In this document: in pieces, positions 42,038 to 59,011 of the stretch | How the letters are laid out: every line of letters starts with the position of its first letter | How positions within the stretch are numbered: the first letter of the stretch is position 1 | DNA from: Anaerolineaceae bacterium oral taxon 439 | GTDB lineage: Bacteria; Chloroflexota; Anaerolineae; Anaerolineales; Anaerolineaceae | DNA: 64,000 bases | Direction of reading: 5' to 3' | Assembly: GCA_001717545.1 (NCBI GenBank) | Contig: CP017039.1 | Span: 2,852,001 to 2,916,000, forward strand | The notes under the pieces: model-generated | The model's database searches: none | The model's input: only the letters and a program-made list of their open reading frames with translations | What the model was told of the DNA's origin: nothing | Position numbers and translations under genes: made by a program

Positions 42038-42053
42038 GATACATTCCATCCTT

Positions 42054-44297: not shown

Positions 44298-44435
44298 CAT
44301 CCTTACCGGTATAAACGCCATGCCTCTATCCGCGCCGCGACGCAGTCCCGGACGTAATACCGGTAATGCCGTCCGGCGCGAACGCGCGCACGGATCTCCG
44401 TCGACGATATTTCCAGCAGCGGCGCATCGACAGGA
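44298..44435 (-). pseudogene. Displaced nadD 3' fragment; left direct repeat of the island
   Basis: This 138-base segment matches 58407-58544 with only two differences by hand (at the ATG/ATT and CATC/CGTC positions). It encodes the last 44 or so codons of NadD, including the stop, but the rest of the gene is missing here. The matching segment at the other edge lies inside intact nadD. The placement is that of the old target 3' end pushed aside by an insertion. Confidence 0.92.
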
Positions 44436-44443
44436 CGCCCGAA

Positions 44444-45538
44444 TTATCCGAAATAATCCTCTGCGACTTTAGATATTATTGAATCAAACGTTCCTTCGAA
44501 TATTTTCATAGATGAAGCGAACATAAGATTGATCGGATAATTAAAATTTTCCACATTGCATCCGCAAACATCACGAAACCCATTCGCAGATCCATAATTT
44601 GGGATTCGCTCGCGCATGATTCTTGTATCGTCCATATATGCATACAGCTTCTTTCCAAGTTGATACGCCATTCCGCATTCAAAAGAGGTATCGCTCTCCG
44701 TTTCCCACGCATGAAACATATTAAGATTCGCAATAATCAAATCACAATTTCGAACATGCCGTTGGTTATGATCAAAAATATTGTAAGCTCGTACATATGG
44801 ATCGTCCGAATGAATCCTTTGAATACCAGCCGCGTCGTCAACCGGCGTTATCGCGTCAAAGCCATACCGGTTACAAAGCTTCTTCATACATTCGTATCGA
44901 ATGATATCATCCGCCTCATACCGCTCCGACCCGCTAAGATACGCAATCGGCTTCCTGCTTTTGGGCAACGACATCTCTTCTTTCGCAACATCAGGGATCG
45001 TCCGATCTCTCAATACAGATAGTTTTCGCTCTTCTTCAATGTCTGTCAGCATTGCATCCAGACAAACATTAAAATCGCCTTGAATTATTTTCGTCGATCC
45101 GATTACATTCGGAGAAAATGGAAGATCCTGATACGGTAAAATTCGTCCTTTTCGATCATAAATAACACCGTCCCTTAATTCCCATCCATAATATTTCCAA
45201 ATCATGGGCCTTTTATCACGCGTATATCCATAGCAGCGAATCCCACGGGCATACGCCATGCCGATCTCATAGACGCTTCCCCCATCAACCTCCGGGCCGC
45301 GAAAAAATTCCAAATCGCAGATAATTGCCGTTGATCGATTCAGGCTATTTGCGCAATTCATGAATATAGCGTCAGCGTTCTTCGTTAAATTATCTTGATC
45401 CCAAACAAATTTATGATCATTCGGGAGTGAGACTTCGCATCCGAATGATTCTGCACGCCGACGCATCGCTTCTAAAATCTGATCGCCGCCACGGTAAAAA
45501 CATTCCGGGCCGGCTATATATATACATTCTTTATTCAT
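44444..45538 (-). CDS. Tandem double-domain nucleoside 2-deoxyribosyltransferase-like protein
   Basis: 364-residue protein made of two related domains. The first (residues 5-110) has IYIAGPECFYRGGDQIL, then CDLEFFRGPEVDGGSVYEIGMAYARG. The second (residues 200-310) has IAYLSGSERYEADDIIRYE, a CDLIIANLNMFHAWETESD stretch, then TSFECGMAYQLGKKLYAY. Both keep the Glu of the SxYE/FE-x-GMA motif, the catalytic nucleophile position in nucleoside 2-deoxyribosyltransferases. Known enzymes are single-domain of about 150 residues and exchange bases on deoxynucleosides. A fused double form is unusual. It is the last gene of the island operon, 21 bases after the nucleoside hydrolase stop. The role is probably base exchange or hydrolysis of an imported nucleoside. 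Confidence 0.78.
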   Translation of the reverse strand: MNKECIYIAGPECFYRGGDQILEAMRRRAESFGCEVSLPNDHKFVWDQDNLTKNADAIFMNCANSLNRSTAIICDLEFFRGPEVDGGSVYEIGMAYARGIRCYGYTRDKRPMIWKYYGWELRDGVIYDRKGRILPYQDLPFSPNVIGSTKIIQGDFNVCLDAMLTDIEEERKLSVLRDRTIPDVAKEEMSLPKSRKPIAYLSGSERYEADDIIRYECMKKLCNRYGFDAITPVDDAAGIQRIHSDDPYVRAYNIFDHNQRHVRNCDLIIANLNMFHAWETESDTSFECGMAYQLGKKLYAYMDDTRIMRERIPNYGSANGFRDVCGCNVENFNYPINLMFASSMKIFEGTFDSIISKVAEDYFG

Positions 45539-45559
45539 AGGAACAGTCTCCGCGAAACC

Positions 45560-46531
45560 CTATTGCAGGACAAGTTCGATTAACAATCGCAAAAAGCGCG
45601 TATAATCAACTTCCATGCCAATCTCAATTTCAGGTAATTGATTCCAGACATGATGATGGCGCCGATCAACTACCGTCATGCCCAAAGAGAGAACTCCTTT
45701 CGTTTCGATCCCAACTCTGGCTTTCATTGTTTTTACGAATGTTGGATCGATCGCATAACCAATAGCCAGACAATCGATAATCGTGCAATAAGCGTCAAAT
45801 CCGCGACCCGTTACAAACTGGATCGCGTTGTACAGGAAACGCGCTTCCTTTCGATTACTTTCCTTCAACATATTCAGCTGCGCTTCGGTAAAATTCACGT
45901 CAAAATGAGTCGCTACGTCTAAACCCAACGCGACCAATTTCACACCGGACCTGTAAACAATATCCGCAGCCTCCGGATCGACATATACATTCCACTCGCT
46001 TTGGGGAGTATCACCAGTAGCGTTTTTAAACGCATATTCATTAAGGCCAAACATTCCAGAAATAGCAATGACCGCAGGAATCAATCTGACAATTTCGGGC
46101 GCCTTGATCAAGGCTAACGCTAAATTCGTCATTGGACCGGTACAAAGTATATATACCTCTCCGGGATATCGCTTCACAGTTTGGATAATTAAATCGACCG
46201 CATGCAGTTTAGACACGCCTGAAGCAGGCTCTGGCAGAAAATTTTCAGCCTGTCCATCGATACCGTGCGTAAATGGATCTTTCGGAACTGGACGAATCAT
46301 TGGCTTACCCATTCCGCGTGCGACCGGGATATCGCTACGAGCAATCATCTCTAAAGTTTTCAAAGCATTCTTCGAAGTTGTTTCGATTGAATAATTCCCA
46401 TTCACAGTCGTCACAGCCAGCAATTCGAGCTTCCGTGATTTCGCGGCCATCACGATCGCCATCGAATCATCCATACCAGGATCACAATCCAAAATTACTT
46501 TTTTAGCAATATTTTTTGAATCATCATTCAT
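45560..46531 (-). CDS. Nucleoside hydrolase (inosine-uridine preferring type)
   Basis: 323-residue nucleoside hydrolase, which hydrolyses the N-glycosidic bond of ribonucleosides to ribose and base. The family hallmark VILDCDPGMDDSMAIVMA near residue 12 provides the calcium-binding Asp cluster. TTVNGNYSIETTSKNALKTL near residue 40 and ILCTGPMTNLALAL near residue 123 follow the family. YVDPEAADIVYRSG (usually NxxxDPEAA) and a C-terminal VVDRRHHHVWNQ (HH in the active-site region) are also seen. The start ATG at 46531 overlaps the phosphorylase stop by ATGA. The combination of phosphorylase and hydrolase in the same operon suggests two nucleoside-like intermediates or a broad range of bases. 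Confidence 0.87.
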   Translation of the reverse strand: MNDDSKNIAKKVILDCDPGMDDSMAIVMAAKSRKLELLAVTTVNGNYSIETTSKNALKTLEMIARSDIPVARGMGKPMIRPVPKDPFTHGIDGQAENFLPEPASGVSKLHAVDLIIQTVKRYPGEVYILCTGPMTNLALALIKAPEIVRLIPAVIAISGMFGLNEYAFKNATGDTPQSEWNVYVDPEAADIVYRSGVKLVALGLDVATHFDVNFTEAQLNMLKESNRKEARFLYNAIQFVTGRGFDAYCTIIDCLAIGYAIDPTFVKTMKARVGIETKGVLSLGMTVVDRRHHHVWNQLPEIEIGMEVDYTRFLRLLIELVLQ

Positions 46532-47460
46532 ATCAAATTGCCTCTCTCTTTTGTCAATTCCGGATACCAATATCTTTTTGAAGCCTTCTCATAATCCATT
46601 TGATGCAAAACCGCACAACCTTCTAAAACAAGGTCGATTGCATTTAAATGACCACAGCCAGCCTCGAATTTTTTTCCGGTAATCATATTGTCCGCAACAG
46701 AACAAACCGATCCGCCTCGAAAACCGAATAAGTTCGCTAACGTGACAATCGCGGCGGATTCACGATCCCCATTCAGCACGCCGGCACGATTATAGATCCC
46801 AGGCATTTGAACGTTCCAAGGCTGTAAATAACCGCCGACGCCGGGACGGCCGCAGCCGACAAAGTCGCTCGATACGCTAAGCGTTATACCCACATGATAC
46901 GAACATTTAAGTTCTTCTGCCGCTCGTACCATCGCTAAAACAACTTCATAATTGCAAACCGCCGGAAAAGATTGCGGAATATATGAACTTGTCATACCGT
47001 CTTCCCGAACGACACCACTGCTGATTACGATATCGCCGGGATTAACATCGTCGCCCATGCCCCCGGAACCTCCGACTCGAATATATGTTGTCGCAGCCGA
47101 ATACTCCATATAGTCATAAAGCAGCAGCTCCGCTTCAGCAGCCCCGCTTCCCCCGCTGACGACAGTTATCCTTGCCCCCTTATAAGTTCCGCTATAACTT
47201 GTAAACATTCCCGATAATCCAATCCGTTCGCTTTTTTCAAGCTTCTCAGCAATCAGTTTCGCAGGATCGCATCCATAACTGCAGAGCGGATCGCGGACAG
47301 TTACCAAAACATATTCACCTACCTTCTGCGGATCGATCTGCGTCATGGCAGGACGGTTATCAATAAGTAAGCCGCGCTGCGGGATATTACGGTTATATCG
47401 ATAATCTCTAACGATATCGCGGATTGACTCTTTCCGACGAATTTGCTCACTTTTTAACAT
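46528..47460 (-). CDS. Nucleoside phosphorylase, uridine phosphorylase-like
   Basis: 310-residue phosphorylase of the PNP/UDP-1 family, splitting nucleosides with phosphate to ribose-1-phosphate and base. VLVTVRDPLCSYG and YKGARITVVSGGSGAAEAELLL near residue 95 line the phosphate site, and YIRVGGSGGMGDDVNPGDIVISSGVVRED near residue 125 is the classic GTxG/PGD region (here GGSGGM and NPGD). The residue that binds the ribose 2'-OH usually lies in an NMExA motif. Here that position reads NGDRESAAIVTLA near residue 226, with Glu retained but the context altered, so the substrate may not be plain uridine. It overlaps the kinase gene by 14 bases and the hydrolase gene by four. Confidence 0.82.
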   Translation of the reverse strand: MLKSEQIRRKESIRDIVRDYRYNRNIPQRGLLIDNRPAMTQIDPQKVGEYVLVTVRDPLCSYGCDPAKLIAEKLEKSERIGLSGMFTSYSGTYKGARITVVSGGSGAAEAELLLYDYMEYSAATTYIRVGGSGGMGDDVNPGDIVISSGVVREDGMTSSYIPQSFPAVCNYEVVLAMVRAAEELKCSYHVGITLSVSSDFVGCGRPGVGGYLQPWNVQMPGIYNRAGVLNGDRESAAIVTLANLFGFRGGSVCSVADNMITGKKFEAGCGHLNAIDLVLEGCAVLHQMDYEKASKRYWYPELTKERGNLI

Positions 47461-48373
47461 ACTTCCACTCCTGATCGCTCAGAATCTCATTCATCAGTTC
47501 CTTTGCGCGCATTCTGCATGCCGAATCAATTCGCGGAGGAACGCCGAATTGTTCAATGCAAATAGCTGCAGAAACATTAGCCATTGCACCGATTCTCTCC
47601 AACGAAAGATTTTTGCAGAATCCGATAAAAGCTCCGCCGGTAGAGCTATTTCCTCCTCCGGTAGGGTCAACGACATTGATATTCCTACAGCTTGGGATGA
47701 AACAACATTGCCCATTCGAAATAACGTAACTTCCCATTTTCCCATCTCTCAGAAAACCGGAACAGCAAAAAGTCTCCAAGAAAAAACTGATCGTCTCTTG
47801 AACGGAATCCGCCCCAGAAAGCCTCGCCATCTCAGTGCGATTAATAGAAAAAATGTCTTCCGGAGAAAGGGCCATACGTATTCGATCAAGGTTCTCTTCT
47901 TTCGCAGCATCCGAACTGATTTCCCACATGATCCGAAATCCATATCGTTTTTTAAGATCTCGGATCTGATCCCAAAACGAAGGTCTTGCATTTTGAAAAA
48001 TATAAACGCCCTCCACACCTGAAAGAAACGGGATTAAATCTCTCGGCTGAGGCTCCAGTTTTCGAAAATGTTCGCGCCCATAAAGCGAAATCTCCAATCG
48101 ATCATCATCAGTTTTATATCGGATCATATTCCGAGGCGAATGCGGATCGAGAACGGATAATCCTTCGGTTGAAATTTGATTCCGTTTGTACCAGGAACCG
48201 AAAGCCGACAGATAATCCGCTCCGACGCCAGACACGATCCCGACCGCATCGGTCCAAATCTTCATGCCTGAAAGAGCGTATACGCCGGCTCCGCCTGAAA
48301 CGTCATTTACGATCTTCCCACCGGGTTCAAAGATTGAATCCCATTGGACTATTGACATAACTATATATTTCAT
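47447..48373 (-). CDS. PfkB-family kinase with altered catalytic motif
   Basis: 308-residue ribokinase-fold protein. The N terminus has VQWDSIFEPGG and SGGAGVYALSGMKIW, with GGxG in the substrate region. The anion-hole/catalytic motif reads VVDPTGGGNSSTGGAF near residue 232. Canonical members have GAGD with Asp as catalytic base; here it is GGGN, with Asn in that place. A similar Asn form is known to me from Mak32-like eukaryotic members. Either it phosphorylates a sugar (ribose or nucleoside) with reduced or modified chemistry, or it binds without catalysis. It lies in the middle of the island operon, overlapping the ADP-ribosylglycohydrolase gene by four bases. Confidence 0.8.
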   Translation of the reverse strand: MKYIVMSIVQWDSIFEPGGKIVNDVSGGAGVYALSGMKIWTDAVGIVSGVGADYLSAFGSWYKRNQISTEGLSVLDPHSPRNMIRYKTDDDRLEISLYGREHFRKLEPQPRDLIPFLSGVEGVYIFQNARPSFWDQIRDLKKRYGFRIMWEISSDAAKEENLDRIRMALSPEDIFSINRTEMARLSGADSVQETISFFLETFCCSGFLRDGKMGSYVISNGQCCFIPSCRNINVVDPTGGGNSSTGGAFIGFCKNLSLERIGAMANVSAAICIEQFGVPPRIDSACRMRAKELMNEILSDQEWKYVKK

Positions 48374-50466
48374 TCGCTGACGCCTTCGGATTCTACGGAA
48401 AAGCCGTCAGCCGTCATCGTGCCGCGCTCAACAAGGAATCCGGCGCCGCCTTTTGAATATTGATCGTCCTGAACCGACAGGATCATCGTTCCGTCAATTT
48501 CAGCCTGAATCAGATTCCCCGCAACGCGGAGACAAACGCTGTATAATCTATCTTCCACATAATCAAAATTTGCGGCAGCAATACAGCGGATCTCGTCGTT
48601 CCGGCGGCAGATAATCTTGATTTTTGAATATTCACTGAAGACAAGCGCGTAATACATTCGGTGCCCTGTGCTTCGTGCAACGAGACCGCCATTTTGATGC
48701 AGACTAAAACAGAGCCGGCTTGATACTACATAATCGCACCAATCCTCGGTCCCGATCGTCACGACACCGTTTCCTTCAGGATGCGAAACGCAATAGGTAT
48801 ATTTAAAATCAGCGGCAAAATATTTAGCGCTTGACGCCCATGATTGGAGCCAAGACGGATTTGTATTCCAAATTGAACTCATCAGCATTCCACTCTGCCG
48901 AAAAAACTGCGGCGAGCCATTCCAATCTAACCGCAGCAGAGAGATCTCACCATTAAACCGTTCGAACGATGAGACCCTGAAACCAAGTCGAAAAATCGGC
49001 ATTCCTTCTGTCGAAGGGACCTTCCATGAGAAAAGATTGAGCCCGTTTTTGATATGTTTCGCCTCGCCGATAATTCTGCTGACAACATTTTCTCTGTTGT
49101 AATAAAGAACGTATGGCGCAATCTTCAGCTCCTGGGAATCAAGATATAACATCTCCCATAGGATCGTTTGCGTTTCGTAAAGCGTCGGGGACGCGACCGT
49201 AGAAAAATTCAGAGCAATTTCCGAAAGATCAAGCCATGTCGGCGTTGAAAAATCCGCATTAACCGAACCTCCCACCGAATAACAACAAATATCCAGCTTT
49301 CCGCCATCAGAATTAATCAACCGAAGCGGTACGTTAGGAGCGTCGTTATAAGGACAAACGGAAAAGCCTTGAAGAGCGCCGGGATAGTCAAAAGAGAATC
49401 GTTCTGTCCGTGGATTAAATGGCTTGTCGAAAAGCTTTGCCATCGCGATGCATATTTTTTTTGTTTGAATAACCGCGTCAGAAATAACCGACCCGCCATC
49501 CGAGCTGATAACCAACATCCGATCTGCAACTGGAGTTCTGAAATCAGATTTTTTATCGATTCCTTCCAAGCCGAGGCGAATCCCGTTCAGGCATCCTACG
49601 TTCCCTGCGTTACAGTCAGTATCCCATGCCGCCGACGCCGCGATTTGAATTGACCGTTCAAAATTATCGCCAGCTAAAAGTAAAGAGGCTAAAACCATCG
49701 CATGATTCGGAACGATATGACAACACCCGGGATAAACGTCATAACCATATTTTTCGTCGATCTTAGCGCGCGCCTGACGCCAGTCCGTTACGGCGCCGCA
49801 AATCGTTCGGATATCGTCAATGAGATACAAAAGGGTTTTATCCGAAACATATCGCATCCCAAGGTCAAACAGCTTTTCAAGACATTTCTCTTCAAACGCC
49901 ATCGACTCCATTGCACCTAAGTAGCAAGCTGCATCCAACGCGATACCGTCATGACTCACTGACGCAGCTTTTCGAACCAAATCAACCGCTTTTTCAGGAT
50001 CGCTCGGGCAGGCCATCGCAATTGCGTCCATAAAAATCTGCGCGCCGATCTGTTCCGCCAGAGTTCGCCCATTTACGTCAATCGAACCGCTTTCAGGCGC
50101 CTGAACACCTCGTTTCAGATTGAGATATGCCGTATGTTCGGTCGATCGGCCTGGTCCTCCCCACCAGAGGATCGTTTTATCTTCAATAATATAATTCAGC
50201 CATGCATTTCCAAAATCCGCCGCAGTCAGATAATTCTCTGAATTCGTATCCGCAATCGCACGAAAGAAACTGAACGTCCCGGATATATCGTCGTCCGCGA
50301 CGATTAACGGAACGTTACATTCCTGATGCTTATAATATGAAATCTCGCCGAATTCATCGATTATTCTTTGATAGGGCCAACCCTCGACCGGTCTGCCAAG
50401 ATAAACGCCGATAATTTTCCCTAAAACGCCGGCATAGACTGTTTCTTCATATTTTCGAATATCCAT
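48370..50466 (-). CDS. ADP-ribosylglycohydrolase-family protein with C-terminal beta module, paralogue 2
   Basis: 698-residue protein. The N-terminal half (residues 1-330) is the all-helical ADP-ribosylglycohydrolase fold. VYAGVLGKIIGVYLGRPVEGW is the start motif, PLIVADDDISGTFSFFRA (near 53) the first Mg-binding Asp cluster, VSHDGIALDAACYLG (near 169) the substrate loop, and AAWDTDCNAGNVGCLNG (near 285) the second Asp pair. The C-terminal half (residues about 380-690) is not part of the classical enzyme and ends in a concanavalin-like pattern: ARSTGHRMYYALVF, then QAEIDGTMIL and YSKGGAGFLVERG. This suggests a carbohydrate-binding or jelly-roll module. The family cleaves ribose-N or ribose-O bonds. 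It is 11 bases downstream of its paralogue in the island operon. Confidence 0.85.
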   Translation of the reverse strand: MDIRKYEETVYAGVLGKIIGVYLGRPVEGWPYQRIIDEFGEISYYKHQECNVPLIVADDDISGTFSFFRAIADTNSENYLTAADFGNAWLNYIIEDKTILWWGGPGRSTEHTAYLNLKRGVQAPESGSIDVNGRTLAEQIGAQIFMDAIAMACPSDPEKAVDLVRKAASVSHDGIALDAACYLGAMESMAFEEKCLEKLFDLGMRYVSDKTLLYLIDDIRTICGAVTDWRQARAKIDEKYGYDVYPGCCHIVPNHAMVLASLLLAGDNFERSIQIAASAAWDTDCNAGNVGCLNGIRLGLEGIDKKSDFRTPVADRMLVISSDGGSVISDAVIQTKKICIAMAKLFDKPFNPRTERFSFDYPGALQGFSVCPYNDAPNVPLRLINSDGGKLDICCYSVGGSVNADFSTPTWLDLSEIALNFSTVASPTLYETQTILWEMLYLDSQELKIAPYVLYYNRENVVSRIIGEAKHIKNGLNLFSWKVPSTEGMPIFRLGFRVSSFERFNGEISLLRLDWNGSPQFFRQSGMLMSSIWNTNPSWLQSWASSAKYFAADFKYTYCVSHPEGNGVVTIGTEDWCDYVVSSRLCFSLHQNGGLVARSTGHRMYYALVFSEYSKIKIICRRNDEIRCIAAANFDYVEDRLYSVCLRVAGNLIQAEIDGTMILSVQDDQYSKGGAGFLVERGTMTADGFSVESEGVSE

Positions 50467-50477
50467 CGTTTTCCTTT

Positions 50478-52586
50478 CTATAATTTTTCGATTAGAAAAC
50501 CCTCCGCCAGAATTGCGCCAGACGCAACAATAAAACCGGCCCCGCCACGGGCATAACTTCCGTCTTCACATGTAAGGAGATCGACGCTGTCAATCATGAA
50601 CCTAAGACAGCTTTCCCGGACCTCAAAACGAAGAAGGTGAGTCGAGTCAGTCGCGCAATTGAATGGAATTGAAACGATCGGGTTTAAAATTTCATCTTTG
50701 CGAATCGCAATCATCGCCACACCATTTTTAATTATGGCAGCATAATATCGTCGATGCCCTTTCGCACGGGCAACAATACCGGCGCCCTCATTTTGCGAAA
50801 AGGTAATCCTTGATTCAACCGCATAATCTTTCCAATCCATCGTTCCGGTTGTAACAACGCCGTTTTCTTTAGGATGAGAAATAGAAAAAGTCGTCGCGAA
50901 ATCAGGGAAGAATTGCTCCGCTGAGCTCATAAACGTTTTTAACCACATCGTTTCAGTTGTCCAGGGCGTCAAGTCGGGGCTCAGTTCGATCGAACGGCCC
51001 AAGCGATACGCAATCGGCGCATCACCCCAATCCACAGAAATCAGATGCAGCTCGCCATCCAAACGATTTGAACTTGTAAGCTCAACACCAAATCGAAAAA
51101 TAGCCTGGCTATTAAGTTTCGGAACGACCCAATCAAACTCATTCCTGCCATGAAGAATTGGGTATTGGGGGCTGAAATTATTCTCAACGGCTCCGTCACA
51201 GCTCAGATATTCAACAAAAAAACGCAGTTGAGGATTCGCACACTGATCAGAACGAATCACAACATGTATCTTTTGTGTCGGATAGAGCGTTGGAGAGGAC
51301 AAAACTTCAAAATAACTCGTCCCATCCCGGCCTGACGATTTTTGACCAGGAAACGTTTCAACAGAGTACGCCGCGCTAACGCCCCTCGCTAAATTTGAGT
51401 AATGCAGAACCAAGCCCTGCTTCCCGTCTTCATTCGCCAAGCGCCCATGAGCCGGATTCATCAAACAGCTCGGATGAACACCCCAGCCCTGAAATGATCC
51501 GGGAAATTCGAAAACAAACCTTTCTTCCGGTTGGGCTACCACTTCATCCCGGAGCCTCGCCGCGGCCTTGAAAATCTTACGCGATTCAAGAACTGCGTCC
51601 GAAACGCAGCTACCGCCATCAGACGTAACCACATAAAGACGATCCGCCACAATCGAACGCAAATCTGCGCCGGCATTGATTCCGTGTAAGCCCAACCGAA
51701 TACCATTCAAACATCCAACATTCCCGGCGTTGCAATCCGTATCCCAGCCAGCGCTGCACGCAATAGATATCGACTTTTGAAAATCATCCCGCCCATATCG
51801 CAGCGCCATCAACATGACCAGATGATTTGTAACAATTGGGCAGCTTCCCGAATATTTATCATACCCATGAACATCAGCGATCCAGTCCCGAACCTTTCGC
51901 CAATCATCCTGTTTCTCACACAGTTCACAGACATCTTGAATTAAATTTAACAACGTTGAATTTTTCACATATCGCAGCGAATCGTTCATTAAACGATCGA
52001 TATTGGATTCTGAAAAAGCTGACGATTCCATCGCAGCCCAGTAACAAGCCGCATCGATCGCTACCCCATCATGGCTGACGCTCGCAGCTTCCCGCGCCAT
52101 CCTTACAGCGCTTTCAGCATCATCTGGATTTACCAACGCCCAGGAGTCGATAAAAATCTGAGCGCCGATTTGTTCGGCAATACTCCGCCCATTCCGCGCA
52201 ATCGAACCGCTTTCAGGAGGCCTGATTCCGTTCAATAATCGTAAATAGGCCGTATGCTCCGTGGAACGTCCTAATCCGCCCCACCAAAGAATCGTTTTAT
52301 TTTTGATAATATAATTCAACCAACCGTTGCCAATTTGTGCTGCTGAAATATCGCGCGAATATCCGTTGTCCTCTAAAGCTCGATAAAAAGCGAATGTCCC
52401 GGAGATATCGTCGTCAGGAACAATCAATGGCACGCCGATTTCAAAATTTTTATAATAATCAACATCTCCAAAAGTCCGGCAAATCTTTTCGTAAGACCAA
52501 CCCTCGATCGGTCGCCCTAAATAGACGCCGATAATTTTTCCGAGAACGCCGGCATATATTTTCTCTTTATATCGTTCAATCGCCAT
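50478..52586 (-). CDS. ADP-ribosylglycohydrolase-family protein with C-terminal beta module, paralogue 1
   Basis: 702-residue paralogue of the downstream gene. It shares IYAGVLGKIIGVYLGRPIEGW, PLIVPDDDISGTFAFYRA, WWGGLGRSTEHTAYLRL, VSHDGVAIDAACYW, GWDTDCNAGNVGCLNG, and the C-terminal module VARAKGHRRYYAAI with YARGGAGFIVASG. All metal-binding acidic positions seen in paralogue 2 are conserved, so both are probably active. There is no signal peptide, so the enzymes work inside on an imported substrate. The tandem pair suggests they act on two related linkages or form a heteromer. The start has no strong ribosome binding site; it lies three bases after the permease stop, so translation is probably coupled. 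Confidence 0.85.
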   Translation of the reverse strand: MAIERYKEKIYAGVLGKIIGVYLGRPIEGWSYEKICRTFGDVDYYKNFEIGVPLIVPDDDISGTFAFYRALEDNGYSRDISAAQIGNGWLNYIIKNKTILWWGGLGRSTEHTAYLRLLNGIRPPESGSIARNGRSIAEQIGAQIFIDSWALVNPDDAESAVRMAREAASVSHDGVAIDAACYWAAMESSAFSESNIDRLMNDSLRYVKNSTLLNLIQDVCELCEKQDDWRKVRDWIADVHGYDKYSGSCPIVTNHLVMLMALRYGRDDFQKSISIACSAGWDTDCNAGNVGCLNGIRLGLHGINAGADLRSIVADRLYVVTSDGGSCVSDAVLESRKIFKAAARLRDEVVAQPEERFVFEFPGSFQGWGVHPSCLMNPAHGRLANEDGKQGLVLHYSNLARGVSAAYSVETFPGQKSSGRDGTSYFEVLSSPTLYPTQKIHVVIRSDQCANPQLRFFVEYLSCDGAVENNFSPQYPILHGRNEFDWVVPKLNSQAIFRFGVELTSSNRLDGELHLISVDWGDAPIAYRLGRSIELSPDLTPWTTETMWLKTFMSSAEQFFPDFATTFSISHPKENGVVTTGTMDWKDYAVESRITFSQNEGAGIVARAKGHRRYYAAIIKNGVAMIAIRKDEILNPIVSIPFNCATDSTHLLRFEVRESCLRFMIDSVDLLTCEDGSYARGGAGFIVASGAILAEGFLIEKL

Positions 52587-52588
52587 AC

Positions 52589-53431
52589 TTATCCTTTGAC
52601 CGAACCCGAGACTAAACCGTCAATAAAATATTTCTGAACACTTATGAAAAAAAGAATGACCGGAACAATCATAATAACCGCCCCCGCCATCATGATTCCC
52701 TGATCCGACGTATATGTTCCGTTCATCGAAAGAAAGCCCAAAGTCGCTGTGAAATTTTTCTGACCTTGGAGAAAAGTAGACGTAATCATAAACTCGTTCC
52801 ACGCTTGAAGTCCAACGATTACGGACACAGTAATCAATCCCGGAGAAACGATCGGGCGCATAATATTCCAAAGGACCTGCTTCGTTGAGGCACCATCAAT
52901 TCTCGCCGCTTCTTCCAATTCTTTTGGCACATTTAAAAAATACGTCCGCATCAAAAACACAGCTAACGGCATATTAATCGCTGCAAGAATAAAACTGACG
53001 GCAAAAATATTCCCCAACAGCTTCAGCTTAGCGTAGATAAAATAAAGCGGAAACAGAAAAAGCTGAAGCGGGATCGTCATCGCAACCATGAAATAAAGCG
53101 TGATCAGGTTTGATCGCTTCACACGTTTACCAGCCAGCACATAGCCAGCCAAAGTTGCAGCGATAAGAACGATCAGAATCGTCGATCCGGAAAGCAGGAT
53201 GCTATTGATGAAACCGCGCCCAAACTTACCCGTCTTCCATGCAGTAGTAAAGTTTGTCCAATTTAAAAACGACGGAAGCGCCAACGGATTACGCGTAATC
53301 TCAGCATGGCTTTTGAAACTATTCGTCAATACCAGAAACAAAGGGGCAACTGCTGTTAAAGCAAAACAAACCAAGACAATATAAATAAATATTTTAGAAA
53401 GCGACTGTGATACCCGATAATCAGGTGTCAT
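52589..53431 (-). CDS. Carbohydrate ABC transporter permease (MalG-like)
   Basis: 280-residue permease with six hydrophobic segments. LVCFALTAVAPLFLVLTNSFK is the first helix and loop typical of MalG-like proteins. The cytoplasmic EAA motif is EELEEAARIDGASTKQVLWN near residue 190, the contact with the ATPase. FFISVQKYFIDGLVSGSVKG is the classic family C terminus. The start is the ATG at 53431 with AGAGG upstream. It partners the permease gene before it, nine bases upstream. Import of a sugar-like or glycoside substrate is expected. Confidence 0.9.
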   Translation of the reverse strand: MTPDYRVSQSLSKIFIYIVLVCFALTAVAPLFLVLTNSFKSHAEITRNPLALPSFLNWTNFTTAWKTGKFGRGFINSILLSGSTILIVLIAATLAGYVLAGKRVKRSNLITLYFMVAMTIPLQLFLFPLYFIYAKLKLLGNIFAVSFILAAINMPLAVFLMRTYFLNVPKELEEAARIDGASTKQVLWNIMRPIVSPGLITVSVIVGLQAWNEFMITSTFLQGQKNFTATLGFLSMNGTYTSDQGIMMAGAVIMIVPVILFFISVQKYFIDGLVSGSVKG

Positions 53432-53441
53432 AAAAACCTCT

Positions 53442-54308
53442 TTAACTAAGCGTTTCAGTCCGACTCGCCCGAACATAGAAAACAGCGGCAACAAAGCCAA
53501 AGAAACTCATAAATAAACCAACGGCAGACGCCTTCCCAACTTGCAGCGCGCTGAATGCAAAAGAATAAGCGTACGTACTGAGCATTTCTGTCATATGTGC
53601 AGGCCCGCCATTCGTCAGCAGATAGATATAGTCAAAGGTCAGAAATGAATTAATCGTTATCATAATAAACATGAGAAGAAAAGTAGGAAAAATATTAGGA
53701 AAATACACATATTGAAACATGTGCCAACCGCCGCAGCCTTCCACCTTTGCAGCTTCAATTTGTTCCTCCGGCGTCTGCCTGAGCGCGGCGAAATATACGA
53801 CGGTCAGAAATCCCCAAAAATGCCAGATATCGACAGCGGCAACACCAATCAACGCTGTTTTTAAATTTGAAAGAGGAGAAGCTATTGACCAACCGATTGA
53901 TTTTAAATAACCAAATATACCAGAGCGTGGATTATAAATAATATTCAGCCAAAGCATCGCGTTGGTAACTGGCGCGAGTACATATGGGAACAAATACATC
54001 AGTTGAAAAGCGGTTCGCCCTTTTTTTATTTGAAACAGGAAAACGGAAGTAATCAACCCGATCAACACCGGAATCGTCAAAAATAATAACGTCCATTTTA
54101 TATTATTCGTCATTGAACGCCAAAAATATTTATCGGCAAACAACTCTTGAAAATTTCTAAATCCGATGAAATTCAACTCCGGTTTAATACCGTTCCAATC
54201 CGTCAGCGAAACAACGACCGTCAAAATTCCGGGGATTAGCACAACAAATAAACTAATCAATAATGCAGGGGCTATCAGCAACTTATCAATCCATGTATTT
54301 GTCTTCAT
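53442..54308 (-). CDS. Carbohydrate ABC transporter permease (MalF-like)
   Basis: 288-residue permease with six hydrophobic segments. LLIAPALLISLFVVLIPGI is the first helix. SLTDWNGIKPELNFIGFRNF is a MalF-like loop, and EEQIEAAKVEGCGGWHMFQY is the EAA motif near residue 193, followed by TFDYIYLLTNGGPAHMTE, characteristic of the family. Together with the next gene it forms the membrane channel of the importer. No ATPase gene is in the island, so a shared MsmK/MsiK-type ATPase encoded elsewhere is probably used. Confidence 0.9.
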   Translation of the reverse strand: MKTNTWIDKLLIAPALLISLFVVLIPGILTVVVSLTDWNGIKPELNFIGFRNFQELFADKYFWRSMTNNIKWTLLFLTIPVLIGLITSVFLFQIKKGRTAFQLMYLFPYVLAPVTNAMLWLNIIYNPRSGIFGYLKSIGWSIASPLSNLKTALIGVAAVDIWHFWGFLTVVYFAALRQTPEEQIEAAKVEGCGGWHMFQYVYFPNIFPTFLLMFIMITINSFLTFDYIYLLTNGGPAHMTEMLSTYAYSFAFSALQVGKASAVGLFMSFFGFVAAVFYVRASRTETLS

Positions 54309-54361
54309 ATCGAATTCTCTCCTTCAGAAGATAAAAAGCGAGAAAAAGATTCTGCTCCCTG

Positions 54362-54410
54362 ATTGGAACGAATAACGAAATCAGGTAAGATTCCTGTTAT
54401 TCGTTCCAAT
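54362..54410 (-). promoter_or_regulatory. Long perfect hairpin between binding protein and permease genes
   Basis: ATTGGAACGAATAAC (54362-54376) and GTTATTCGTTCCAAT (54396-54410) form a perfect 15-bp stem around a 19-base loop. No T-run follows it on the minus strand, so it is more likely an mRNA-stabilising or processing hairpin. It would let the binding protein be made in excess of the permeases. Confidence 0.75.
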
Positions 54411-54458
54411 TTCTAAAAGTTAATCGGCTTCGTTAAATAATTTACAGATCAACAGAAC

Positions 54459-55796
54459 TTATTGCTGCGCCGGCTCTGGGATCGGAGGAACCAGACCCTT
54501 TTCAAACTCAACCTGAAACTCTTTATCAACTCTATCAAGAAATTCGCTCACTGTCGCTTCGCCGTACCATACAGTTTCGATATCTATGAACTGAGTTTGG
54601 GTTGCGGCCGGGAAGAAAACATTTGTATAATACCCGAAATTACCGTTATTAATCGCGTCCGAAACGGACCGAACCGCTTCAGTAAAGGATTTGGAAAGCG
54701 GCCCCATATTGCTCGTATCAACAGCAGAAAGGTCTTTCAACGGAACGCCCCAATATCCCGGCCAGGCCTCTGTCATTTTCTGCATAAATTCTGGAGTCAT
54801 CATCATATCCAAAATCGCAGCAGCAGCGTCTTTATGTTCTGAATTCGCGTTAATTGAAAGGGTGCAGGCTACTCCCAACGTATACAATGGATACGGAACG
54901 TCTTTTTCGCCGGCAGGGAACGGCGCGAACCCTAAATCTTCAGCCTTATCATCAACAAAGAAAGAAGCCGCCCACTGGAAACCAATGCTTGGGCCAAAGA
55001 AAAACGGAGATTTCCCATCCGCCAATAGCTGAATTGATTCGCTGAAATTCAGGTTTATATAATCCTCGCCCCCAAGATATCCTTTATTGAACCACTCCGC
55101 AGATTTTTCAATCGCGCTGGCAATACGAGGATTGTTCCATTTTTCTTTCCCGGTCAAGGAATTGTAAACCGCGCGGGGACCGGCAAAATGCGTCAGGAAC
55201 AAAGATGAATAATTTTCGTTGACCGGTTTCCACCCCTTATTTCCGGTAACAGACGCGTACATTCCTTTATCAATAGCTTCATCCATGACCGTTATTAATT
55301 CGTCGATCGTAGTCGGGACCTCCCAACCGTTTTCTGCCAGGACCTTTTTGTTATAGAAGATACCCATTGTACTGACAGAATTCCCCAGACTATATAATAC
55401 GCCGTTGACCGTCCCGGAATCATATAACGGAGAAAGAATTCGATCTTTCCATCCGTATTTTTCCGAATACGTGTCCAACGGAGCTAAAGCGCCGGCGTCC
55501 GCTAACGGCATGACAAATGCAGGCCCTGAACCATAAACAATGTCCGGCCCTTCCCCGGCGGCAAGCGCGACATTAATATCGTTATCAACTGTATTGCGAT
55601 ATTCAATAATCAATTCGTATTCATCCTGCGACGCGTTATATGTGTCAGCAAGAATCGTATTCAGTGCTTCCTGCGAATAAGGCTCCGCGCCCCAAAACCA
55701 TAAACTGATTTGTTGTTTTTCCGCATGAACGGGGAATGCGGCGAATAAGACCACGAACGACAATATTAATACAGATAACATATGGCTTTTCTTCAT
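54459..55796 (-). CDS. ABC transporter substrate-binding protein, sugar type
   Basis: 445-residue extracellular binding protein of the family 1 (MalE-like) type. Signal peptide MKKSHMLSVLILSFVVLF, cleavage near HAEK; no lipobox Cys. The mature part includes QISLWFWGAEPYSQEALN, VALAAGEGPDIVYGSG (near residue 75) and GVLYSLGNSVSTMGIFYNKKVLAENGW, all typical. FPAGEKDVPYPLYTLG and a C-terminal AAAILDMMMTPEFMQKM also fit. It should capture the island's substrate outside the membrane. It is the first transporter gene of the operon, preceded by the YjbQ gene (82 bases apart) and followed by the hairpin. A C-terminal stretch PPIPEPAQQ looks unstructured. Confidence 0.9.
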   Translation of the reverse strand: MKKSHMLSVLILSFVVLFAAFPVHAEKQQISLWFWGAEPYSQEALNTILADTYNASQDEYELIIEYRNTVDNDINVALAAGEGPDIVYGSGPAFVMPLADAGALAPLDTYSEKYGWKDRILSPLYDSGTVNGVLYSLGNSVSTMGIFYNKKVLAENGWEVPTTIDELITVMDEAIDKGMYASVTGNKGWKPVNENYSSLFLTHFAGPRAVYNSLTGKEKWNNPRIASAIEKSAEWFNKGYLGGEDYINLNFSESIQLLADGKSPFFFGPSIGFQWAASFFVDDKAEDLGFAPFPAGEKDVPYPLYTLGVACTLSINANSEHKDAAAAILDMMMTPEFMQKMTEAWPGYWGVPLKDLSAVDTSNMGPLSKSFTEAVRSVSDAINNGNFGYYTNVFFPAATQTQFIDIETVWYGEATVSEFLDRVDKEFQVEFEKGLVPPIPEPAQQ

Positions 55797-55878
55797 TTTT
55801 CTGCTCCTTTTTATCTTTTTGCATCAGGCTTGGTTGATCTGCTGAGACAAAATTCAGCGAAATCCGAACAACTTTCGA

Positions 55879-56289
55879 TTAATCAGAAAAAACTTTTACA
55901 TAAACCTCCCGCTTCCTTGGCCCGTCAAACTCCAGAAAATAAATCCCCTGGGAATGCCCGAGCAGCAACTTTCCTCCCTCAACCATAAGAGATAAAGAAA
56001 CGCCTATTAAAGACGATTTAACATGCCCGGCAGCATCCTGCGGCGTATCATGCTGATGTTTAAAATCAATTCGAGTTGGAATCAAACGACAAATTTCATC
56101 TTGAATATCCTCCAAACCGTTAGGGTCCCAAAAAGATGTAATCGTTATGCCGCCTGTCGTATGCGGCGTATAGACAAGACAAACGCCTGACTCAACCTGA
56201 CTCTCTGCAACAATCTTGTTTACATCTTCAGTCAGTGAGATCATGGCTCGATTTCCGGTCTTAAATTCGATTTTTTTTCTGATTGCCAT
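55879..56289 (-). CDS. YjbQ family protein (secondary thiamine-phosphate synthase type)
   Basis: 136-residue single-domain protein of the YjbQ/UPF0047 family. VCLVYTPHTTGGITITSF near residue 37 and HQHDTPQDAAGHVKSSLIG near residue 77 provide the metal-binding His/Asp residues. The C terminus has LLLGHSQGIYFLEFDGPRKREVYV. The fold resembles a metal-bound hydrolase or isomerase; one family member, YjbQ, is linked to a low thiamine-phosphate synthase activity, and the true role is uncertain. Within an operon with nucleoside and ADP-ribosylglycohydrolase-like enzymes it may process a phosphorylated or glycosidic intermediate. It starts nine bases after the SIS gene stop. Confidence 0.83.
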   Translation of the reverse strand: MAIRKKIEFKTGNRAMISLTEDVNKIVAESQVESGVCLVYTPHTTGGITITSFWDPNGLEDIQDEICRLIPTRIDFKHQHDTPQDAAGHVKSSLIGVSLSLMVEGGKLLLGHSQGIYFLEFDGPRKREVYVKVFSD

Positions 56290-56297
56290 GGTTATCC

Positions 56298-57428
56298 TTA
56301 TAAAAATATTTCGCTATTCTTTACGGCTCCGCCGCCTTCACAAAAAGACCACTTTCCTTCGCAGCCTCGTCCATCTTTTTCGCCAATCATCACGGCAATA
56401 TATCCCATCAGCAAAGCAATCGGACAAAACTGGGTAAGCGGAGACATAAAAGAAAAAGAAGCCGATGGGATACAAATCTTTTCTATCTGCGAGCCTAACC
56501 CATCAAGGTCCCCATCCGTAATCAGAATACTCGGCCGACCAAGTTCAGCAATATGAGTCATCGTTTCTTTTGTTCTGCTCATCGCCGCGTTTTCTGAACC
56601 GGCGATAATTATCGTTCCGATTTGATTGACATCACGCATAAAAACATTCAAGTGCAGCCAATCTTCTGAATTCGCGCACATCGCAAATTTACCAGTTGCT
56701 TCAAAAACTTTAGCATGACCATACCATGCCGTTCCATAATCCGATCCGGAACCGATAAAATCGAAAGCCGGATAGCCCTTCCATTTTGCAGCGACCTGAA
56801 GACAATCCTGATCCATCTTCGGCAGCAGGCTGCGAAGTAAATTCGCCTGCGATCCAAAGTCGTTTCGATATACGTCTGCCATGTCCATCGTTATTTTTCC
56901 CCGTACCTCAGAAAAGCGAACCGCTAATAACAACAACGCCATCAGAGATACCAGATACGTTCGAACCCCTGACGCGCTTTCGAACGTCGGAATCGAAATT
57001 TTCATAATATAGTCAGAATTCTTTCCTAACAACGACTGTTCGTTTGCAGTAACCCCTAAAACCTTTGCTCCGAATTTATGAGCGCGTTGGACGGCCTCGC
57101 CAATCCGCGCAATCTGGCCGGAATTGCTAACCGCAATGACTAAAGAATTATTTGGATAAAAACCCAAGTGAATCTCCGAATAAAACCGACTTAGATCGAT
57201 AGAAGGCACACACTCGGTGGGGATCCCCGCCACAGATTCAAACGCATATTTCGCAGCCATGCCGGCTGCCAATGAGTCGCCGCATCCGGTTAGAATAATC
57301 TTTTGAATCCTGAAAATTTCCGGCGTCGGCAATACTTTCCTGGCTCTGGCCTCTAAATCAAGATATTGACTCTCCATCAGGTCAGGCAGGCTAAGAACCT
57401 GTCGTCTCATCGCATTATCACATTCCAT
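56298..57428 (-). CDS. SIS double-domain protein (sugar isomerase/deaminase-like)
   Basis: 376-residue protein with two SIS (sugar isomerase) domains of the GlmS/AgaS type. The first domain has ILTGCGDSLAAGMAAKYAFE near residue 46 and LVIAVSNSGQIARIGEAVQRA near residue 96. The second has FIGSGSDYGTAWYGHAKVFEATGK near residue 222 and TIIIAGSENAAMSRTKETMTHI near residue 272, with SNS and SEN-type phosphosugar loops. Such proteins bind phosphosugars and isomerise or deaminate them (aldose-ketose steps). It is the first gene of the minus-strand operon of the island, divergent from the GntR gene. Whether it acts on a phosphorylated ribose or amino sugar is unknown. Confidence 0.82.
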   Translation of the reverse strand: MECDNAMRRQVLSLPDLMESQYLDLEARARKVLPTPEIFRIQKIILTGCGDSLAAGMAAKYAFESVAGIPTECVPSIDLSRFYSEIHLGFYPNNSLVIAVSNSGQIARIGEAVQRAHKFGAKVLGVTANEQSLLGKNSDYIMKISIPTFESASGVRTYLVSLMALLLLAVRFSEVRGKITMDMADVYRNDFGSQANLLRSLLPKMDQDCLQVAAKWKGYPAFDFIGSGSDYGTAWYGHAKVFEATGKFAMCANSEDWLHLNVFMRDVNQIGTIIIAGSENAAMSRTKETMTHIAELGRPSILITDGDLDGLGSQIEKICIPSASFSFMSPLTQFCPIALLMGYIAVMIGEKDGRGCEGKWSFCEGGGAVKNSEIFL

Positions 57429-57449
57429 ATCACATTCTCAATTCATCTT

Positions 57450-57478
57450 ATTATATGGTTATCAGTATAACAAGATAA
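57450..57478 (-). promoter_or_regulatory. Promoter with operator-like inverted repeat for the island operon
   Basis: On the minus strand TTATCT (57473-57478) and a perfect TATAAT (57450-57455) are 17 bases apart. The spacer contains GTTAT-ACTG-ATAAC (57458-57471), a 5-bp inverted repeat. It lies 22 bases before the SIS ATG. The divergent GntR regulator is the likely ligand. Confidence 0.6.
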
Positions 57479-57559
57479 GTTAAAACGCTCAACATGCCAA
57501 AAGTCATATTCACAGGAGTTACATTCATCCCAAAGCCCGATGAAAAAAGAATTACTAAT

Positions 57560-57587
57560 TTGACAAAAACTAAAAAAATCGTAAGAT
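57560..57587 (+). promoter_or_regulatory. Promoter of the island GntR gene
   Basis: TTGACA (57560-57565) and TAAGAT (57582-57587) are separated by 16 bases, 38 bases before the ATG at 57625. It diverges from the operon promoter about 80 bases away. Confidence 0.6.
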
Positions 57588-57624
57588 TTTGGTAGCAGGG
57601 ACCTATTAGAAGCGGATTTTCATC

Positions 57625-58392
57625 ATGCCATATATCAGACAGGACACCACATTAATCGATCGGGATTCGCCAATACCCGCCTACCAACAAATCGTAAGAA
57701 GCTTAACCAACCGCATCATCGACGGAGAATGGCAGCCGAACGATAAACTTCCGTCCGAAAACGATTTAGCAAGTGAATATGCCGTTAGTCGCATCACGCT
57801 ACGTCAAGCCCTGAGCATCCTTGAATCCGATAAAATCATCAGAAAAGAACAGGGAAGAGGCGTCTTCGTTCAAAGAAATCCGGACTATGTCGTTCATAAG
57901 CTATTCTTTCCGACCGTGAATAACAATGGTAAAGCACTGCGCGAATCGGAAGTTCATTCAAAAGCGATCGATATATCGCTGACAGATGATGCCGACAATA
58001 AAATATTCAAAAAGCTAAAAATTCCAGCTGGCAGCGAACTTATTTTTTTACAGCGTCTTTTTACAAAGGGCGATAAAATAATCGGATTGAATCGCGCATG
58101 GTTCCCCGCCGAGAAAGTTCCGAACATGCAGAATTTACGTCTGATCAACAATAGCGTGTCTACGACGTTATTACAACGCTATCAAATCGAAGCAGTCAGA
58201 ATTGAAAATTCGATCGAAGCGATAAAAATGGATGCGGTATTAGCGGCGACCGTTGAAGTTCCTTACGACTCTGCTGGATTAAAAATCAATTCAATTCATT
58301 TCGATAAAGAAAATTCTCCATTTGAATTCGCGTCAACGGTTTGGGTAGGGGAGCTGACAAAATTTCAATTAACAATGACGAAAGACAGCTGA
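57625..58392 (+). CDS. GntR-family regulator with UTRA domain (HutC type)
   Basis: 255-residue regulator. The N-terminal winged helix has PIPAYQQIVRSLTNRIIDGE, NDKLPSENDLASEYAVSRIT and LRQALSILESDKIIRKEQGR with GVFV, all standard. Residues 95-250 form a UTRA-like ligand-binding domain (LIFLQRLFTKGDKIIGLNRAWF near residue 145; LTKFQLTM at the end). HutC-type regulators bind a small molecule such as a phosphosugar or nucleotide and come off the operator. It is the only plus-strand gene in the island and lies at its right edge, 14 bases before the direct repeat. The operon promoter with an inverted repeat is 150 bases upstream. Confidence 0.9.
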   Translation: MPYIRQDTTLIDRDSPIPAYQQIVRSLTNRIIDGEWQPNDKLPSENDLASEYAVSRITLRQALSILESDKIIRKEQGRGVFVQRNPDYVVHKLFFPTVNNNGKALRESEVHSKAIDISLTDDADNKIFKKLKIPAGSELIFLQRLFTKGDKIIGLNRAWFPAEKVPNMQNLRLINNSVSTTLLQRYQIEAVRIENSIEAIKMDAVLAATVEVPYDSAGLKINSIHFDKENSPFEFASTVWVGELTKFQLTMTKDS

Positions 58393-58406
58393 TCTCCACG
58401 TTGGCA

Positions 58407-58544
58407 CATCCTTACCGGTATAAACGCCATTCCTCTATCCGCGCCGCGACGCAGTCCCGGACGTAATACCGGTAATGCCGTCCGGCGCGAACGCGCGCAC
58501 GGATCTCCGTCGACGATATTTCCAGCAGCGGCGCGTCGACAGGA
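58407..58544 (-). repeat. Right direct repeat of the island (inside nadD)
   Basis: Copy of the 138-bp sequence at 44298-44435. It covers the last 44 or so codons of the intact nadD gene, its stop (58412-58414) and five bases beyond. Two mismatches were counted. It marks the right boundary of the insertion. Confidence 0.92.
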
Positions 58545-59011
58545 AGGAGCTTTTCAGCCAGCGCCGGAAAACGGGCGAAAAGCGCATCTGTCTCCGACCG
58601 CTCCCCAGGCCGCGCCATGACCCCCAGCCCGTCGATCGCCGCAACGATCCGATCCGGCTCATACCACCCGAATAAATCGTTCAGCGAATCCTGCCCGATC
58701 AGGCAGAACAGCTCGTCGCCGGAATATTTCGCCCGCAGGATCTCCAACGTATCGGCGGTATAATGCGGCCCCGGGCGTTCGTTCTCGATCGTCGAGACCT
58801 CGAAACGCGGCTCACCGGAAATCGCCGCGCGGACCAGCTCCGTCCGCTGCTGAAACGGCGTCGTCGCCCGATCGGCTTTATGCGGCGGGAGCGGCGCAGC
58901 CATCCAGAGAACCGTATCCAGCGCCAGCTGATCCGCGGCCTCCGCCGCCAGGATCATATGCCCCAGATGCGGCGGGTCAAACGTCCCGCCGAAAACCCCG
59001 ACTCGCGCCAT
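58412..59011 (-). CDS. nadD: Nicotinate-nucleotide adenylyltransferase
   Basis: 199-residue NadD, joining nicotinate mononucleotide with ATP to give deamido-NAD in NAD synthesis. The nucleotidyltransferase motif GVFGGTFDPPHLGHMILA is at the N terminus, with the GGTFDPxHxGH signature. The second motif is in LEISSTEIRARVRAG near residue 170 (ISST-x-IR). Length is normal. The gene is intact despite an insertion at its 3' end; the island or recombination kept the reading frame and stop. The start overlaps neither neighbour: obgE ends six bases upstream. Being a housekeeping gene, it must have been restored at insertion. Confidence 0.95.
   Translation of the reverse strand: MARVGVFGGTFDPPHLGHMILAAEAADQLALDTVLWMAAPLPPHKADRATTPFQQRTELVRAAISGEPRFEVSTIENERPGPHYTADTLEILRAKYSGDELFCLIGQDSLNDLFGWYEPDRIVAAIDGLGVMARPGERSETDALFARFPALAEKLLPVDAPLLEISSTEIRARVRAGRHYRYYVRDCVAARIEEWRLYR

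Follow-up and report, generated by a model that had tools for sequence, protein, structure and literature searches.

Gene content and island structure

We analyzed a window of 64,000 nucleotides from the genome of Anaerolineaceae bacterium oral taxon 439 (CP017039.1, assembly GCA_001717545.1, positions 2,852,001 to 2,916,000, forward strand). This window contains an operon of eleven minus-strand genes, running from position 57428 down to 44444 and opposed by a divergent plus-strand gene for a GntR-UTRA regulator. An earlier note on this DNA had described these twelve genes, and the list of open reading frames (ORFs) together with family models confirmed each of them in position and family. They are given below in order of transcription, after the regulator, with the evidence for each assignment.

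57625..58392, plus strand: GntR-UTRA regulator, divergent from the operon
56298..57428, minus strand: double-SIS protein, GlmS-isomerase-like (family models and residues)
55879..56289, minus strand: YjbQ (UPF0047) protein, mostly adjoining SIS in relatives (family model)
54459..55796, minus strand: sugar-type (CUT1-like) solute-binding protein; Sec-like signal, lipobox not seen (by eye)
53442..54308, minus strand: permease A, BPD_transp_1 (family model)
52589..53500, minus strand: permease B, BPD_transp_1 (family model); start probably slightly downstream of the TTG
50478..52586, minus strand: ADP-ribosylglycohydrolase-like protein 1 (ARH1), 702 aa (family model, predicted structure)
48370..50466, minus strand: ADP-ribosylglycohydrolase-like protein 2 (ARH2), 698 aa, paralogue of ARH1 with 47% identity (family model)
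47447..48373, minus strand: PfkB-fold protein, Asn242 replacing the catalytic Asp (family model, predicted structure)
46528..47460, minus strand: nucleoside-phosphorylase-fold protein (NP), altered phosphate site (family model, alignment)
45560..46570, minus strand: nucleoside-hydrolase-fold protein (NH), Ile replacing the general-acid His (family model, alignment)
44444..45538, minus strand: double nucleoside 2-deoxyribosyltransferase-fold protein (dNDT) (family model, alignment)
44298..44435, minus strand: 138-bp direct repeat, left copy; truncated 3′ end of nadD, 43 codons
58407..58544, minus strand: 138-bp direct repeat, right copy; 3′ end of the intact nadD (58412..59011)

With the longest ORFs, neighboring genes of the operon are separated by -59 to +150 bp (ten gaps), and the TTG starts of NH (46570) and permease B (53500) are probably placed too far upstream. 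The earlier note had counted five families acting on ribose bonds; there are five such proteins (the two ARHs, NP, NH and dNDT), belonging to four families. The sugar ABC importer that it described is represented by the binding protein and both permeases, while no ABC ATPase is encoded among the twelve genes; one UgpC-type ATPase above the family cut-off is encoded elsewhere in the genome. Promoter and terminator scans came out close to the shuffle mean (28 vs 24.2 and 14 vs 17.6, respectively), and a search of the regulator gap for an operator yielded none that was convincing.

The region is a genomic island of about 14 kb, as the earlier note had proposed. G+C content between the repeats (44436-58406) is 0.447, compared with 0.566 in the remaining window; 61 stretches of that size on the left side of the island span 0.519-0.597. 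The flanking repeat copies, identical at 136 of 138 bp, consist of the final 43 nadD codons and a few further bases, and a search of the genome found the repeat at these two places only, with no third copy. The twelve genes, which occupy the whole interval from one repeat to the other, include no integrase or transposase; shorter overlapping ORFs on the other strand or in other frames were not scanned. nadD may serve as an attachment site used in trans; the island may have entered through a recombinase acting in trans or through recombination of a circle carrying the nadD end. Two relatives keep the Obg-NadD pair, but what lies downstream of their nadD had no match to ORFs of the window, so that neither relative revealed an empty site. 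Direct repeats between the operon flanks were also searched for at other loci, where only short matches (18-54 bp) appeared, in four loci. Beside the island, at 39469-43304, inspection by eye without any search showed a NeuB-like synthase, a NeuA-like CMP transferase fused to a HAD-like domain and a glycosyltransferase-like gene, in a region of host composition.

Conservation and spread of the gene set

We scanned GTDB contigs with the ARH pair and kept the best 79 of 532 confirmed candidate loci. Families were scored by the best BLASTP match of at least 60 bits, and counted only in loci of at least 12 kb, namely 31 of the 36 closest loci (L051-L086, hereafter operon loci) and 39 of 43 comparison loci, which carry more distant ARHs of about 700 residues. 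One long-branch locus of the ARH2 clade, L089, stands on the comparison side in these family counts and on the operon side in the accessory-gene counts given below. Among the 31 operon loci, the families were recovered as SIS 28, NH 28, PfkB 27, each permease 27, YjbQ 26, binding protein 26, ARH2 26, ARH1 25, NP 20, dNDT 14 and GntR 10. The 39 comparison loci contained the binding protein in 25 cases and the permeases in 30-31, PfkB once, and SIS, YjbQ, NH, NP and dNDT not at all. Fisher's exact test gave p values of 5e-10 to 2e-16 for five enzymes. The earlier note had looked to co-occurrence of these families in other genomes as a check on its reading; the co-occurrence is far above chance, and these counts rule out a chance gathering of genes.

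Taxonomy differs between the two sides, with Bacillota making up 27/37 operon loci, and Pseudomonadota (26/42) and Chloroflexota (10/42) prominent among the comparison loci. The core pattern is not explained by this difference, because operon loci of Pseudomonadota (L067, L073-L075) and Chloroflexota (L057, L066) hold all five enzymes. Gene order varies as well: SIS and YjbQ lead the operon in Bacillales and in the window, stand behind PfkB or NP in Lachnospiraceae, and in Devosia and Mesorhizobium the gene set is divided between two strands. The linkage of the gene set thus survives rearrangement. NP and dNDT are missing from the four Bacillales loci, and L064, L082, L085 and L086 hold only parts of the set. 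In L082 and L085 the ARH2-type protein is accompanied by genes of the M19 dipeptidase family and of esterase type, SIS, NH and dNDT being on the other strand.

The operon occurs nearly intact in bacteria of several phyla and is best read as horizontally spread; its description as one functional, island-borne unit is supported. Around two cultured organisms that carry the operon, order-level sampling recovered, at strict cut-offs, 1 of 295 genomes (Ruminococcus turbiniformis) and 1 of 198 (Paenibacillus eucommiae), in each case the query genome itself. Among 201 genomes of the phylum of the window, no NP relative of more than 41% identity was found outside its own genome. Plasmid searches returned one Rhizobium record without annotation for NP and nine records at 36-39% identity for ARH1. 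Lactonifactor longoviformis carries three versions of the operon in one genome (L052, L063, L083), whose NP proteins are 53-68% identical to that of the window. On the Enterobacter hormaechei plasmid pMB8072_1 (L133, 13948-18407), a LacI-type gene, a 700-aa ARH and a binding protein lie, by annotation, between chitoporin and glnS/nag genes.

Active sites of the operon proteins

Bacteria commonly encode ARH-family proteins, which are as a rule regarded as de-ADP-ribosylating enzymes. Both operon ARHs match PF03747 with 171 bits (cut-off 26.2). A sequence search of solved structures with ARH1 returned none at E 0.001, and its structure was predicted with a mean pLDDT of 92.9. The model comprises a catalytic ARH domain (residues ~1-345), a beta-sandwich (~355-520) and a CBM66-like beta-sandwich (~527-702). 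Residues 3-348 superpose on MJ1187 (Z 33.1), ARH3 (Z 32) and DraG, all within Z 31-33 and at 13-19% identity, while residues 527-702 superpose on the Bacillus subtilis CBM66 with Z 22.9. ARH1 has the fold of these three enzymes and their acid and metal residues in common with them, and differs in its two additional C-terminal modules; the operon ARHs also read WDTDCN in place of the usual ARH motif, DTDT. The metal centre looks intact, since E28, D58-D60, D282 and D284, which we equate by motif with ARH3 E41, D77/D78 and D314/D316, are invariant in 43/43 sequences. No signal peptide was apparent by eye in ARH1. Most probably, the ARHs act in the cytoplasm as glycosidases that bear modules of sugar-binding type.

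In a tree of 102 ARHs, built with a quick method, with some long branches and without ARHs shorter than 520 residues, the operon members formed one clade (59 rows, SH-aLRT 100) that divides into ARH1 (29 rows, SH-aLRT 97) and ARH2 (30 rows, SH-aLRT 91). Each subclade contains Bacillota, Chloroflexota, Pseudomonadota and Spirochaetota, and by this topology the two are old paralogues and not a recent duplication. Both are usually kept and therefore probably have different jobs. ARH1 occurs without ARH2 in five loci of at least 12 kb (L061, L062, L063, L067, L083); a single-domain ARH of 337-340 aa lies upstream in L062, as identified by family model, and in L063, as identified by cluster. The genome of the window holds further ARH genes. 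At L008 (3069-9191), one lies directly behind a Bmp/PnrA-type ABC importer, as a 533-aa ORF with an extra N-terminal part that overlaps the permease gene, so that its real start is probably later. At L007 (10582-17035), a 701-aa ARH and a 328-aa ARH form a set of a different ARH type with what are, by eye, a binding protein and two permeases; an arabinose-isomerase-like gene was seen nearby, also by eye.

We also compared catalytic residues in the other enzymes, taking the roles of single residues in PfkB, NP, NH, dNDT and SIS from the literature on these families. The PfkB-fold protein, predicted with pLDDT 94.1, has a ribokinase fold (Foldseek E 2e-16 to the nucleoside kinase 3kd6), its nearest folds being this one nucleoside kinase and ribokinases. 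At the catalytic Asp of the GxGD motif, which three solved kinases aligned with it possess, Asn stands in 27/27 operon members (26/26 without the window protein). In NP, Gly84 occupies the position of the phosphate-binding Arg of uridine phosphorylase (UP R48′) and is kept in at least 95% of 23 rows, and VRD[PA]L replaces the GDPxR loop in 23/23 rows; R128, S132 and the ribose-binding Glu are retained. Six loci (L052, L058, L068, L072, L077, L083) hold both NP and a DeoD-type gene, and NP for this reason probably has another function. In NH the metal site, DxDPGxDD, is preserved, with D28, D30, D34 and D35 each in at least 95% of 33 rows. At the general-acid position of NH (H241), where both solved structures aligned have His, we found Ile in 30/33 rows, His in two and Phe in one. 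Some other groups of nucleoside hydrolases also lack this His, which leaves hydrolysis possible and makes NH the weakest of the three residue tests. dNDT keeps a catalytic Glu in each of its two domains, E91 and E287, both conserved in at least 95% of 15 rows. The first was assigned by motif only, while the second lines up with the Glu of two solved enzymes.

On these alignments, the names kinase, phosphorylase and hydrolase are doubtful for PfkB, NP and NH. The stepwise cleavage proposed in the earlier note finds its ribose-bond-cleaving families in place, but the named activities are not to be taken at face value, because in PfkB, NP and NH alike a residue central to the named chemistry has been lost.

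The loss of the His in NH bears on the idea that the operon serves salvage or catabolism of NAD- or nicotinamide-riboside-type compounds, whose leaving group needs no general acid. The Ile in 30/33 rows would suit such a substrate, and adenine-handling genes lie nearby in some loci. Against it, the recurrent neighbors that were identified include neither a pyrophosphatase nor a nudix or nicotinamidase gene, although no search was aimed at these and most single neighbors were left unnamed; a calcineurin-type phosphoesterase occurs once (L076), and the insertion beside nadD looks like an attachment-site matter only. We regard this explanation as very improbable.

SIS retains the pair E243 and H259, 16 residues apart and each kept in at least 95% of 28 rows, which aligns with E488 and H504 of GlmS. 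The deglycating protein of the Bacillus frl system is likewise of SIS type. This pair would fit a second alternative, namely an Amadori-product (fructosamine or ribulosamine) pathway on an frl chassis in which ARH, NH, NP and dNDT trim the amine or nucleoside part. B. subtilis frlBONMD-frlR-frlP is described as a deglycating protein, a binding protein, two permeases, a kinase, a regulator of its own and the FrlP or shared MsmX ATPase (PMC12632257), a scaffold that the operon has in common with it. The fructoselysine-6-phosphate deglycase model also gives weak matches to two related SIS proteins of the phylum (E 0.0009 and 0.00035). In the window itself, neither that model nor the fructoselysine 6-kinase model matched SIS or PfkB at E 0.001, and the kinase needed for a phosphorylated intermediate lacks its catalytic base in 27/27 members. 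Nor would twin ARHs, a purine-nucleoside phosphorylase or an adenine deaminase be expected in such a pathway, and we consider it improbable.

We further examined the gene surroundings of related SIS proteins in the phylum, in 11 regions that were chosen by hand and are not a random sample. A PfkB-family gene was present in 7/11 and was of the Asp type outside the genome of the window. Within that genome, L182 (7893-17033; genome positions 1507892-1517032) contains a second Asn-type PfkB, two SIS proteins, BtpA and a second Bmp/PnrA-type importer. Further neighbors in the 11 regions were Bmp-type or ECF importers and hydantoinase-like amidohydrolases, with AllG and a GH125-type gene once each. 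Such contexts suit N-glycosides or cyclic amides in general and single out no compound. L187, from the same family as the genome of the window, holds three SIS, two PfkB, BtpA, AllG, a CoA-ligase-type gene, a hydantoinase-like amidohydrolase and ABC importer genes, and is possibly a ureide or purine breakdown cluster.

Accessory genes, substrate and relation to known systems

For the accessory genes, we counted BLASTP matches with at least 30% identity to a single representative of the family, one or two representatives of each family having been identified by family model. A purine-nucleoside phosphorylase was present in 9/37 operon loci (seven of DeoD type, two of inosine/guanosine type), behind dNDT in eight loci and behind NH in one, with gaps of -55 to 466 bp. 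Phosphopentomutase was found in 4/37, adenine deaminase in 7/37 and ribokinase in 8/37, whereas the corresponding numbers in the 42 other loci were 0 for purine-nucleoside phosphorylase, 0 for phosphopentomutase, 1 for adenine deaminase and 4 for ribokinase. The first three families lend independent support to the riboside reading, and their presence in gene neighborhoods points to three intermediates: a purine nucleoside, ribose-1-phosphate and adenine. Two ribokinases encoded in the genome of the window are above the family cut-off.

These genes also bear on whether the operon is instead a glycoside or oligosaccharide utilization system, with the ARHs as ordinary intracellular glycosidases of non-ribosides and the nucleoside-type folds recruited for sugar lactones, amino sugars or similar compounds. 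The importer is of sugar type, the ARHs bear CBM66-like and second beta-sandwich modules, and the catalytic residues of the nucleoside-type folds are altered, all of which would agree with it. More distant ARHs, moreover, are often found together with a binding protein, permeases, an ATPase-type gene and a LacI-type or similar gene, and in one case, on an Enterobacter plasmid, chitin genes lie alongside. What argues against such a system is the occurrence of a standard purine-nucleoside phosphorylase and phosphopentomutase within the operon gene row in some Bacillota, together with four separate ribose-bond families in one operon. We judge it unlikely. Breakdown or detoxification of nucleoside antibiotics or toxic modified nucleosides, as opposed to nutrition, would agree with the patchy distribution described above and with altered active sites that suit non-standard nucleosides. 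A detoxifier needs no import, and the importer with phosphopentomutase or ribokinase in some loci favors nutrition; this explanation seems to us highly improbable.

The explanation we favor, with slightly better than even confidence, is that the operon is a horizontally spread catabolic system for a purine-riboside glycoconjugate. In its favor are the conserved gene set with its accessory purine and ribose genes, the ARH clade with two subclades each spread over four phyla, the ARH fold with its intact acid and metal residues, the nucleoside-kinase and ribokinase folds nearest to PfkB and, in the genome of the window, the two Bmp-type importers that stand with an ARH gene and with the second Asn-type PfkB. 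The earlier note had proposed import of an ADP-ribose-, nucleoside- or riboside-like compound; an importer linked to ribose-bond enzyme families agrees with this. Our single best guess, held with low confidence, is a ribosylated purine nucleoside resembling ribosyl-adenosine, as left behind by ADP-ribose polymers. Similarly speculative is the broader proposal of an undescribed pathway for disaccharide nucleosides, in which the ARHs would be nutritional alpha-ribosidases and the PfkB, NP and NH folds would carry out new chemistry; its substrates, ribosyl-adenosine for example, would come from poly- or mono-ADP-ribose turnover of dead eukaryotic cells.

For this catabolic system we infer the following order of steps. 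The binding protein and two permeases would, with a shared MsmX/UgpC-type ATPase encoded elsewhere, import a sugar-bearing compound of few rings, which is the most strongly indicated step. The two cytoplasmic ARHs, assisted by the CBM66-like module, would then hydrolyze alpha-ribosyl bonds through their metal centre, each acting on a different linkage. The accessory genes suggest that a purine nucleoside is set free at this point. Ordinary nucleosides would be handled by a standard purine-nucleoside phosphorylase and phosphopentomutase, free ribose by ribokinase and adenine by adenine deaminase, encoded beside the operon or elsewhere, while the NH-, NP- and dNDT-fold proteins would work on N-ribosides other than ordinary nucleosides. 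SIS and YjbQ, to which the earlier note assigned no role, are conserved to the same degree as the ARHs; together with the PfkB-fold protein they may handle a sugar-phosphate or ketosamine remainder, the most tentative step of the scheme. The GntR-UTRA regulator would respond to an intermediate.

Several observations weigh against a purine-riboside glycoconjugate as the substrate. CUT1 importers usually carry sugars and not nucleosides, Bacillus CBM66 binds fructosyl ends, and a simple nucleoside pathway needs neither SIS nor YjbQ. The enrichment of ribokinase is not significant (8/37 vs 4/42, p 0.12). All nine purine-nucleoside phosphorylases and all four phosphopentomutases are in Bacillota, and given the phylum composition of the two sides the contrasts for these genes are partly taxonomic. 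Adenine deaminase in several loci is a neighbor and not an operon member. The island in the window lacks the phosphorylase, mutase, deaminase and ribokinase accessory genes, and the best adenine deaminase match in its genome falls below the cut-off (370 vs 472.5 bits). The closest NCBIfam model of both Bmp proteins, far below its cut-off, is a putative B6 importer, and the ECF importers, hydantoinase-like genes and GH125-type gene beside related SIS proteins do not point to a riboside.

Among known systems, the nearest nutritional parallel is rus, the ribose utilization system of Bacteroides (BT2803-2809), which scavenges ribose from nucleosides for nutrition and some loci of which presumably include ARH-family proteins. 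The locus around BT2804 as tabulated in one source combines a ribokinase, a nucleoside hydrolase and a permease, and the tabulation includes no SIS, YjbQ, double NDT or twin 700-aa ARH (PMC10434189). Import there proceeds by a TonB/SusD-type outer-membrane route, according to the same source, in contrast to the ABC-type importer of the operon (PMC10434189). Membership in rus was rejected, a SusC/SusD-type import gene being absent from the twelve genes of the island. E. coli yegTUV with GgaR (YegW) resembles the operon in having a GntR regulator, an ARH-family protein (YegU), a sugar kinase (YegV) and a nucleoside-type transporter (PMC10819704). YegW is reported to sense ADP-glucose, and the yegTUV enzymes are described as uncharacterized (PMC10819704). 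With its three genes, yegTUV has an NHS-family symporter and a single ARH, and includes no SIS, YjbQ, NH, NP or NDT, all five of which the operon has (PMC10819704). Compared with frl, the operon has a PfkB without the catalytic Asp, with YjbQ, two ARHs, NP, NH and dNDT as additional genes. Membership in Frl was rejected, as the FrlB-type SIS and FrlD-type kinase models gave no match at E 0.001.

The operon is thus none of rus, yegTUV or frl and is best placed with the riboside-scavenging systems, as a new form. Literature searches with narrow terms, covering titles and the starts of abstracts and mostly without subscription papers, returned no description of this gene set among the entries listed, and searches of the same scope on ribosyl-adenosine and frl gave none either, in agreement with the earlier note, whose author knew of no described pathway with this exact gene set.

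By joining two ARHs to a sugar-type importer and to enzyme families for purine ribosides, this conserved operon offers the large ARH group a metabolic role that can be tested. If the substrate comes from ADP-ribose polymers or similar debris, the operon would name an unrecognized food source. In this one operon, three standard enzyme folds show a conserved loss of catalytic residues, which cautions against automatic annotation, and the altered PfkB, NP and NH folds indicate chemistry that is open to direct assay.

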